Shown: piece after piece, positions 14,784 to 16,823 of the stretch
Layout of the letters: each line of letters starts with the position of its first letter
How positions within the stretch are numbered: position 1 is the first letter of the stretch
Origin: Bordetella holmesii ATCC 51541
GTDB taxonomy: Bacteria; Pseudomonadota; Gammaproteobacteria; Burkholderiales; Burkholderiaceae_B
Length of the DNA stretch: 64,000 nucleotides
Assembly (NCBI GenBank): GCA_000612485.1
Contig: CP007494.1
Coordinates: 3,286,001 to 3,350,000, forward strand
Direction: 5' to 3'
Made by a program: the position numbers and the translations under genes
Notes under the pieces: model-generated
The model's input: the letters and a program-made list of their open reading frames with translations, nothing else
Databases searched by the model: none
Told to the model about the DNA's origin: nothing

Positions 14784-15316
14784 TTAGGCCGTATCGTCGG
14801 CCGTGCATGATCAACCGTTTGCGGTCGACCACTCTGAAGACTGTCTTACCTAAGAGATGGTCCTACTATGCCATAGCCAGCCGCCGCAGCCAAAGGTGAG
14901 GGTTTCCTCCCGCACAAAAACGCGTTCGACTGCCGGGCTGTGTGCCAGCTCGGCCACCGGCCCTCAGCCGCTGACTTTTCGTCTCCGCACGCGCGCGCCA
15001 CCCCCTTAATCCCCTGGTCACGCGCGTTTTGGTGCGTTTCTGTTCGATAAGGCGCCGGGCCAGAAGACGACCCTGCCGCAATTGCCTCTCCTTCGATAGG
15101 TCCCTACTTCTTCAGCTTCCAAAAAAACGGATAGTATTGCGGAAAATATTCATCAAGCATCTAATTACATCGATAAATGGAATAATCTTTTCAACTTTAC
15201 CGGGTTTATCCTAGGTCTTGTTGCATGCACAATGCAGTCATTGGGAAACAAAAACGAACTTTGACGGCACCTCCGCCAGGTCCGCTCCCAGGAACCTAGA
15301 CCTAAAGGAAACCGCT
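14784..15316. other. Intergenic region between exported-protein and DUF4148 genes
   Basis: About 530 bases with no supportable gene. The right half (15110-15230) is AT-rich and probably holds the promoter of the DUF4148 gene. No other structure stood out. Confidence 0.5.
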
Positions 15317-15646
15317 ATGAAAACCCTCACTTCCGCCCTATTGATGTCGATGGCCATGCTGAGCACGGGTGCTTACGCCTCGCAGAACATTGAACCGAAC
15401 AACGTGCCGTTCCAAGGCGTCTACGGCCAGCAAGAGCAAGGCAAGAGCAACGCTCAAGTGCAACAGGAACTGGCCAATGCCAAGGCGACCGGTCAGTACA
15501 CCTTTGGCGAAAACGACTATCCGCCCGCCACCGCCATGGCCACTTCGGGCAAGACCCGTCAACAAGTCAGGGACGAGCTGGCTCAAGCCAAGGCCAATGG
15601 TGATTACACCTTCGGCGAACTGGACTACCCGCCCCACACGAACTGA
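15317..15646 (+). CDS. DUF4148 family exported protein
   Basis: 109-residue protein with signal peptide MKTLTSALLMSMAMLSTGAYA. The mature part has two related repeats ending YTFGENDYPP and YTFGELDYPP, each preceded by a helix of the type VQQELANAKATGQ / VRDELAQAKANGD. This is the DUF4148 pattern, abundant in Burkholderiales. AAAGGA lies upstream of the ATG. Function unknown; presumably periplasmic. Its message may extend into the hairpin array immediately downstream. Confidence 0.88.
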   Translation: MKTLTSALLMSMAMLSTGAYASQNIEPNNVPFQGVYGQQEQGKSNAQVQQELANAKATGQYTFGENDYPPATAMATSGKTRQQVRDELAQAKANGDYTFGELDYPPHTN

Positions 15647-15689
15647 TTTAGGTAGTAAGCGCGGAGCCACGCGTGATGCAGTAGCAGTA

Positions 15690-15850
15690 CCAGCAAGTGC
15701 AAGACCAGCAAGTGCTTTATCCGCAAGTGCAGTAGGTAGTCTTTGCAACACAAAGAAGTAGCAGTGACGAGCCAGAGCATCGGCTCGAGCGACATCCGGG
15801 CCAGAACATCGGTCCGGTGCAGTAAAAGGCTAGAACATCGGCCTTTGGCC
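15690..15850 (+). ncRNA. Candidate structured RNA: tandem hairpins sharing one loop sequence
   Basis: Three consecutive hairpins have different stems but the same 8-base loop. Hairpin 1 (15768-15787): stem CGAGCC/GGCTCG, loop AGAGCATC. Hairpin 2 (15796-15817): CCGGGCC/GGTCCGG, loop AGAACATC. Hairpin 3 (15825-15846): AAAGGCT/GGCCTTT, loop AGAACATC. Stem changes are compensated or G-U wobbles. Upstream, GCAAGTGC is repeated three times (15693-15700, 15707-15714, 15723-15730) and CTTTG/CAAAG can pair around CAACA (15741-15755). No coding frame explains this. It follows the DUF4148 gene directly and precedes a broken yddG. It could be a 3' UTR structure or a separate RNA. No family recognised. 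Confidence 0.5.
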
Positions 15851-15881
15851 GGGTAGGTTTCCGTTTGCAATCTCGATTACT

Positions 15882-16823
15882 ATGCGCGCTTGTCCCGATT
15901 TGCCGAGTCTGATTTGCCTTCCGCCCCCCGTCGTCCCGGGCAACCGTAATTGGTCTGCTTGCCGTTGTCTGCTGGAGCGCCGTGGTCGGGCTCATACGCA
16001 GTATTGCCGAAGGCTTGTGGGGCCGGCCGGCGGCGCCGCCTGCCTGTTCACCGTCAGCGCCGCGTTGGTTTGCCTGGTCCGCGGCTTGCCGCGGCTGGCC
16101 CGCTTTCATCCGGTCTATCTCTACGGCTGCGCAGCGCTGTTTGCCGCCTATGAGATCTGCCTGGCCTTGGCGATCGGCTCGGCACATACCCGGGCGGAAG
16201 CTCTCGAGCTGGGCATGATCAATTACCTTTGGCCCAGCCTGACCATCGTGGTGGCAGTGCTGGCCGGGCAGGCGCGCGGCACGTGGGTGTTATGGCCGGG
16301 CGCTGCCCTGTCCTTCTTGGGCATCGTCTGGATTACCGGGGCCGGCCAGGCACTGTCGTTCGATCGTATCCATGACAATGTCGCCGGCAATCCGGTGGCC
16401 TATGCGCTGGCCTTTGCTGCAGCAGGCCTGTGGGCTGCCTATTCGGTGCTTACCCGCATCTACGGGCGCGGAGATAACGGCGTCGCCCTTTTTTTGCTGA
16501 TAACTGCCTTGGTCTTATGGCTCAAGCATGGCCTGAGTACCGAGATGGGCGTGTACGAGGCTTTGGTCGCCAATCCCGCAGCCGGCGTGCAAGTCCTGGT
16601 GCTGGGCGCCTTGGTGGCCACCGGCTATAGCTGCTGGAATCTGGGTATACAGAAAGGCAATCTGGCCTTTTGGGCCGCTGCTTCCTACTTCACGCCGGTA
16701 CTGTCAGCCTTGTTGGCTGCCGCATGGTTGCACCAGGATCCCGGTGCGGCATTCTGGCAAGGTGTGGCCATGGTGACTGCCGGGTCCCTGCTATGTTGGC
16801 ATGCAACCCGGGCGCGCGGCTGA
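15882..16823 (+). pseudogene. yddG: YddG-like aromatic amino-acid exporter (EamA), frameshifted near N-terminus
   Basis: Drug/metabolite-superfamily exporter with ten predicted helices. The body (VGPAGGAACLFTVSAALVCL onward) matches YddG: YEICLALAIGSAHTRAEALELGMINYLWPSLT, SYFTPVLSALLAAAWL and a GSLLCWHATR end. The first helix, ATVIGLLAVVCWSAVVGLIR, is encoded in another frame (about 15939-15998). Two extra bases around 16017-16019 (GGCTTGTGGGG) break the join to GPAGGAA. That frame has no start codon after its upstream stop, so a second lesion near the C-run at about 15925 is likely. Non-functional unless these are sequence errors. Confidence 0.75.

Follow-up and report, generated by a model that had tools for sequence, protein, structure and literature searches.

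Within the window (the whole 64-kb stretch of Bordetella holmesii ATCC 51541 DNA that was analysed), three tandem hairpins were located on the + strand at 15768–15846, spaced at 29 nt and carrying unlike stems around a shared loop, AGA(A/G)CATC, an arrangement that is a selected RNA structure, probably of that strand. The array sits between a gene for a small DUF4148 protein and an EamA-type transporter open reading frame, both on the + strand, and closes an untranslated stretch that is longer than the array and contains GCAGTA/GTAGTA motifs. The relevant features, by window position, are as follows.

15227–15316, +: leader ahead of the DUF4148 start codon, almost unchanged across four species (alignment).
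15317–15646, +: gene for a small DUF4148 protein of 109 amino acids plus stop codon, with an apparent signal peptide (by eye); PF13663, E = 1.4e-20.
15652–15824, +: span of the GTAGTA/GCAGTA motifs of the 3' untranslated region, at 15652, 15678, 15684, 15729 and 15819.
15684–15731, +: three GCAAGTGC copies in a 15-nt tandem repeat that is not conserved among the relatives.
15740–15756, +: additional small hairpin, TCTTTG-CAACA-CAAAGA, with no counterpart seen in the three relatives.
15768–15787, +: hairpin 1, CGAGCC-AGAGCATC-GGCTCG, a stem of 6 pairs with the 8-base loop AGAGCATC.
15796–15817, +: hairpin 2, CCGGGCC-AGAACATC-GGTCCGG, a stem of 7 pairs with the 8-base loop AGAACATC.
15825–15846, +: hairpin 3, AAAGGCT-AGAACATC-GGCCTTT, a stem of 7 pairs with the 8-base loop AGAACATC.
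15847–15881, +: terminator place, shortened and without a terminator in the window (hairpin comparison with the relatives' loci L057–L059, and alignment).
15882–16823, +: EamA/DMT transporter open reading frame; PF00892, E = 2.5e-11.

The three stems with a common loop had been proposed in a first-pass annotation made from the sequence alone, and their coordinates were confirmed; the hairpins also depart from chance. When hairpins were defined as like-looped by a stem of at least 6 pairs, a loop of 8 bases and at most one loop mismatch, none of 5000 dinucleotide shuffles of 15647–15881 yielded two or more of them (3054 held no such hairpin, and 1946 held hairpins of which no two were alike), and by the same rule, with members no more than 150 nt apart, the array was the sole like-loop cluster on both strands of the window. 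The three GCAAGTGC copies that the annotation had placed ahead of the hairpins were also found, starting at 15693, 15708 and 15723 (spacing 15 nt); B. genomosp. 12 has one copy, and B. hinzii and B. pseudohinzii have none. A peptide running through these repeats was ruled out by stops and indels in the relatives (by eye). The motif at 15819 serves as the linker joining hairpins 2 and 3, GCAGTA linkers accounting for one of the two in the window and both of those in B. hinzii.

PF13663 was the only Pfam family listed for the gene upstream of the array, and its orthologues in three relatives exhibited 83–90% identity. The leader together with the surroundings of the start codon (15227–15320) was invariant across the four species at 91 of 94 aligned sites (relatives' loci L057–L059) and contains an inverted repeat, CAATG-CAGT-CATTG, at 15230–15243 (by eye); a sigma-70 consensus scan of 15050–15950 found no promoter. 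Leaders resembling this one precede other DUF4148 genes (L063, L064 and L071; by eye). At the opposite end, the hairpin script indicated that in the three relatives the array is closed by a terminator-like stem of 12–14 pairs before T-rich sequence, and a terminator scan of the window's + strand behind the array listed none. The closing stem of the B. hinzii locus (L058) also went unlisted in a simple terminator scan, in our view because stem and T tract overlap. The first 50 or so codons of the transporter open reading frame (15882–16040) lie in a frame differing from that of B. hinzii, B. pseudohinzii and B. genomosp. 12, which it matches again from GPAGG on, as judged from the translations.

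A DNA search of 101 genomes recovered the array stretch from the window genome and three further Bordetella, namely B. hinzii, B. pseudohinzii and Bordetella genomosp. 12, with the same gene order (DUF4148, array, EamA) in each. A two-loop pattern, for which the reversed control gave no match, was present in 4 of 15 genus genomes and absent from 11, two of these being just 73 and 77% complete. The covariance-model search suggested in the first-pass annotation was run with a model (R2) built from the 12 hairpins of the four species: across 268 family genomes it returned 11 places, all in the same four genomes and at one locus per genome, and genus genomes outside the clade gave no match, although R2 missed one of its own 12 training hairpins (hairpin 3 of B. 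genomosp. 12) and has possibly missed weak relatives too. The array is thus clade-specific and not genus-wide, and a widespread hairpin family was ruled out by the restriction of R2 to 4 of 268 genomes. Homologous regions lacking the stems or loop, which the annotation had regarded as telling against its reading, are what the other 11 of the 15 genus genomes present; none occurs within the four-species clade. In a collection of 85k species the exact two-loop pattern was matched by 32 stretches, 3 of them from Bordetella, and we suppose that most of the other 29 are due to chance; the one inspected among them, L051, proved to be a different palindrome. This Candidimonas metagenome-assembled genome carries, at 2450–2700 of L051, REP-like palindromes around CCTTGTGG / CCACAAGG that are unrelated to the array. 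Hairpins occupying the same position differed across species at 2.3 of 14 stem sites and 0.5 of 8 loop sites, as against 6.6 and 0.8, respectively, between positions; same-position hairpins being alike across species and different positions unlike, the array is older than the species split.

Comparison of the 12 hairpins (11 distinct) revealed that 93.5% of cells were paired, that five of the seven stem pairs had changes on both sides, and that cells changed on both sides numbered 16 as against 5.0 in shuffles; the covariation score of 0.613 (0.256 when shuffled) was reached by none of 500 shuffles. Sliding the partners by one reduced pairing to 47–56% and gave a far lower covariation score. 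When the four whole arrays were compared, 94.0% of cells were paired, but both-side changes were confined to 3 of 21 pairs and 11 of 500 shuffles reached the covariation score, so that most of the covariation lies between hairpin positions and less of it between species at one position. RNAalifold returned the same three hairpins.

The pair list for the 12 hairpins contained four G-U cells on the + strand and no A-C cells, and all five unpaired cells fell at the outermost pair, as A-A or A-G. For the window itself (15761–15848) the fold z was -3.03 on the + strand versus -0.57 on the - strand, with corresponding values of -5.06 and -2.52 for B. genomosp. 12, -4.11 and -3.91 for B. hinzii, and -4.16 and -3.74 for B. 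pseudohinzii. The two strands are set apart by folding in the window and in B. genomosp. 12, but not in the other two species. Folding alone does not give the strand, since the - strand had the lower energy in both B. hinzii (-39.4 versus -36.8 kcal/mol) and B. pseudohinzii (-40.2 versus -38.7 kcal/mol). It is the wobbles, of which there are only four, together with the window's own fold that point to the + strand; an RNA from the - strand was rejected on the same two grounds, to which B. hinzii and B. pseudohinzii add nothing by their folds.

Evidence for constraint on the loop came from comparison with silent sites. All 12 loops conform to AGARCA(T/A)C, with 1–2 of 24 loop sites differing between species, whereas the four-fold degenerate sites of the transporter, counted only in codons agreeing in their first two bases as the window reading frame is partly another one, differed at fractions of 0.16–0.49. 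By Fisher's test the contrast was significant in five of the six species pairs (p = 2.9e-5 to 9.9e-4), the exception being the closest pair, B. hinzii and B. pseudohinzii (p = 0.094). The DUF4148 gene, whose four-fold sites differed at fractions of 0.04–0.38, constituted a weaker control: the five pairs tested gave p values of 0.0016, 0.0087, 0.029, 0.13 and 0.16, and hence a significant difference in only three of them; the silent sites of this gene may themselves be constrained. Constancy extends to the inner stem, where 0–1 of 12 CC/GG sites differ, and thus to a near-constant block CCAGARCAUCGG in which loop position 4, either A or G, is the sole freely varying position of the loop. The covariation, the loop comparison and the + strand wobbles all lend support to the first-pass proposal of a selected RNA structure with a constrained loop. 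It is very improbable that the array is instead a DNA-level repeat without RNA function, its arms kept complementary by tandem duplication and quasipalindrome correction (template switching): its surroundings are indeed repeat-rich (the 15-nt repeat at 15684–15731) and Bordetella has further intergenic repeats such as BRE (PMC3110155), but under these processes the loop would not be expected to stay the same next to neutral sites that have diverged by as much as 49%, nor would all of the wobbles, four cells only, fall on one strand as G-U.

As to function, the reading to which we tentatively incline, quite possible though short of probable, is that the DUF4148 messenger may carry the array as a structured 3' untranslated region, which would serve as a multi-site regulator or sponge that offers the same loop to one partner. 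The + strand DUF4148 messenger would be transcribed together with the array as its structured 3' tail, which might be cut off as a small RNA; the array would then present an identical single-stranded 8-mer three times to one partner and might act in the manner of tandem sRNA arrays from 3' untranslated regions, such as CcsR1–4. We lean towards a partner RNA carrying GAUGUUCU, since both of the bases found at loop position 4, A and G, can pair with U, although a loop-reading protein would be nearly as likely. The first-pass proposal of repeated binding sites for a protein or a complementary RNA is in this sense plausible. A search near AGGA sites for the complementary anti-loop, which the first-pass annotation had suggested looking for in other RNAs, gave 8, 10, 14 and 13 hits in the four array genomes (G000, G001, G005 and G006, respectively; 4, 8, 3 and 5 for the reversed control), and in this single search no matched stretch was common to all four; one was common to G000 and G006, matched by stretch and not by orthology. 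Given that 11 of 15 genus genomes lack the array and that it was found at a single locus wherever present, any role in trans would be young and local.

The anti-loop search, in finding no RNA target, is consistent with a protein partner, each hairpin being the site of an RNA-binding protein that the messenger tail would titrate, and the inclusion of inner stem pairs in the constant block accords with what hairpin-binding proteins often need. This alternative is nevertheless quite improbable. Sponge RNAs of CsrA/RsmA present GGA in their hairpin loops, and these proteins do not fit the array, whose loops have no GGA. The distal face of Hfq binds repeated in-phase A-R-N triplets (PMC4104026). 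Runs of these in the linear part of the window array numbered 15 as against 11.9 in shuffles, a value reached by 48 of 200; among 13 related arrays the observed value was reached by none of 200 shuffles in two, by 1 in one, by 6 in one and by at least 26 in nine, so that all shuffles were beaten in only 2 of 13 arrays, the window's not among them.

Other DUF4148 genes bear on a further alternative, in which the hairpins would be a passive barrier slowing 3'-to-5' decay of an abundant messenger and the loop would have no partner. Some Bordetella DUF4148 genes (L062 and L063) have little beyond a terminator downstream, and others (L060 and L068 of G007, and L061 of G010) are followed by arrays of other hairpins, about a dozen in the case of L061; a common hairpin with the loop (C/A)TCGCAACAC ends the arrays of L061 and L068, which belong to two species. 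Arrays thus recur behind this gene family with loops that are lineage-specific, and the quite different loops of L060, L061 and L068 favour a barrier. At L061 and L068 the order is DUF4148 gene, array of other hairpins, and then a gene for an HD-type hydrolase (named by eye). In a fold survey of the 200 nt behind DUF4148 stops, for which 40 of 52 loci were used (the remaining 12 were incomplete or overlapped others), the mean z was -2.88 for the sense strand, -2.69 for the antisense strand, -0.02 farther down and -0.40 upstream, with z below -3 at 18, 15, 0 and 2 of the 40 loci, respectively. The greater structure of these stretches relative to their surroundings, part of which is explained by terminators, also fits a barrier, but their antisense strands are about equally structured, and a barrier would not require 12 hairpins to keep nearly one loop through changes in their stems. 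We regard a pure stability tail as somewhat unlikely, and the multi-site regulator as the preferred reading. If a working RNA it is, the array would link the large, poorly understood DUF4148 family to a regulatory messenger tail, and its three identical loops on swappable stems would make it a clean test case.

The GCAGTA/GTAGTA motifs of the untranslated stretch recur elsewhere in the family, long GCAGTA arrays being found behind some DUF4148 genes of other genera (e.g. L099, L117 and L168). Within 400 nt behind the stop of 52 DUF4148 loci, YAGTA was lacking at 28 and present in 3–9 copies at 6, and the reversed control never exceeded 2 copies at the same loci. A three-motif pattern gave, among the matches listed, 76 merged places (overlapping rows were merged by hand); for 40 of these 76 the genome had a listed DUF4148 hit, and 9 of the 40, again among the matches listed, lay no more than 500 nt sense-downstream of a DUF4148 gene, none being antisense. 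Other places, at which genes were named from reading translations and not by family search, were the following.

L121, L140, L164 and L166, sense: tRNA spacers.
L124, L145, L148 and L160, sense: leaders before rpmI.
L157: rpsB leader.
L162: behind a flagellin gene.
L136, in the window genome: behind a substrate-binding-protein gene.

The tRNA spacers each hold at least two sense GCAGTA/GTAGTA motifs, as do the rpmI leaders L171, L178, L183, L184, L191, L198 and L160, and the tRNA and rpmI cases span several genera. At L136 (1500–1530) a tandem repeat of three units is formed by the end of the substrate-binding-protein gene (named by eye), with the last codon and stop of that gene (CAGTAA) in the repeated part, and L125 is a similar case. 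Very long arrays of about 300–400 nt occur at L151 (G182) and L152 (G060), and at L131 and L144 the motif lies inside coding sequence as plain microsatellites.

An examination not chosen by motif was made of the 230 nt before rpmI in the best 30 of 61 genomes: GYAGTA occurred 23 times, its reverse twice and its complement twice, with at least one copy in 10 of these 30 leaders and at least two in 6; removal of L171, L183 and L198, previously found by pattern, left 12, 2 and 2 in 27 of the best 30 of 61. In 13 chosen arrays GCAGTA numbered 84 versus 12.6 in shuffles, a figure biased by the choice of arrays, AGTACC numbered 36 versus 2.4, and 120 of 213 AGT spacings were multiples of three. Across 161 genomes it was mainly in some genera (g4, g6 and g10) that the three-motif pattern outnumbered its reversed control, the control being higher in several genomes (e.g. 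G253, pattern 2 versus control 57). GYAGTA numbered 37 in the whole window against 20.2 expected from shuffles, and was no commoner than its reverse in the noncoding part (8 versus 6), as delimited by a longest-ORF mask that hides the array itself. It is conceivable, though unlikely, that the array is a specialised form of a family-wide, undescribed RNA spacer code, in which sense GCAGUA/GUAGUA(CC) arrays within untranslated regions of highly expressed transcripts would be read by a common RNA-binding factor or would protect naked RNA, e.g. from Rho; the noncoding count did not lower our confidence further, as the noncoding part of the window amounts to only 5.4 kb. If confirmed, such spacer arrays would give an entire bacterial family a common feature at the RNA level.

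The first-pass statement that no known RNA family corresponds to the array held good in two comparisons. Rfam covariance models run on the window and on L010–L012 gave nothing at gathering score, by which a known Rfam RNA was ruled out, and at E values up to 10 there were two chance-level matches, both outside the array. The other comparison was with BRE (the betaproteobacterial repeat of about 90 bp, bprJ), of which each Bordetella genome is described as having several dispersed copies, mostly intergenic (PMC3110155). BRE resembles the array in being tandem, hairpin-rich, mostly intergenic and found in Bordetella, but its 82-nt unit is of unrelated sequence without the AGARCATC loop, no common stem was apparent by eye, and its several dispersed loci contrast with the one array locus per genome (R2, 4 genomes). 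Identity with BRE was ruled out by the sequence (by eye) and by the single locus. The 82-nt tandem repeat at L086 (1326–1469, G008), which we take to be BRE because it lies 3' of lexA, where PMC3110155 places that repeat, has hairpins joined by GCAGCAA/GCGCAGCG linkers. In the literature searched, which left most subscription papers outside reach, no description of the array or of GCAGUA arrays was found.

Several stem-loops presenting one short motif are characteristic of LhrC-type and RsmY/RsmZ-type sRNAs, which are like the array in that repetition and unlike it in their C/U-rich and GGA loops, respectively. The closest parallel is ccaF1-CcsR, in which a small DUF gene is followed by tandem sRNAs in its 3' untranslated region and by a Rho-independent terminator (PMC10253847, PMC8625941). 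This CcsR1–4/CIN1 locus, of Rhodobacter sphaeroides and other alphaproteobacteria, shares with the array the order of small DUF gene and similar RNA units, there being four similar RNAs in the one and three hairpins in the other; as to the terminator, the hairpin script gave a terminator-like stem in the three relatives and none in the window, and the simple scan listed none at the B. hinzii locus. Features of CIN1 and CcsR further include RNase E processing to single sRNAs and an RpoH-type promoter. The upstream gene of CcsR encodes a DUF1127 RNA-binding protein and that of the array a DUF4148 secreted-type protein, and the former system is alphaproteobacterial, whereas the array is betaproteobacterial. 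CcsR RNAs also carry a C-rich loop motif, unlike the AGARCAUC of the array. With these two defining features of CcsR lacking (DUF1127 and the C-rich loop), the array would at most work like CcsR, and the comparison suggests that it is an undescribed tandem-hairpin RNA in a 3' untranslated region, of a kind that is otherwise known.
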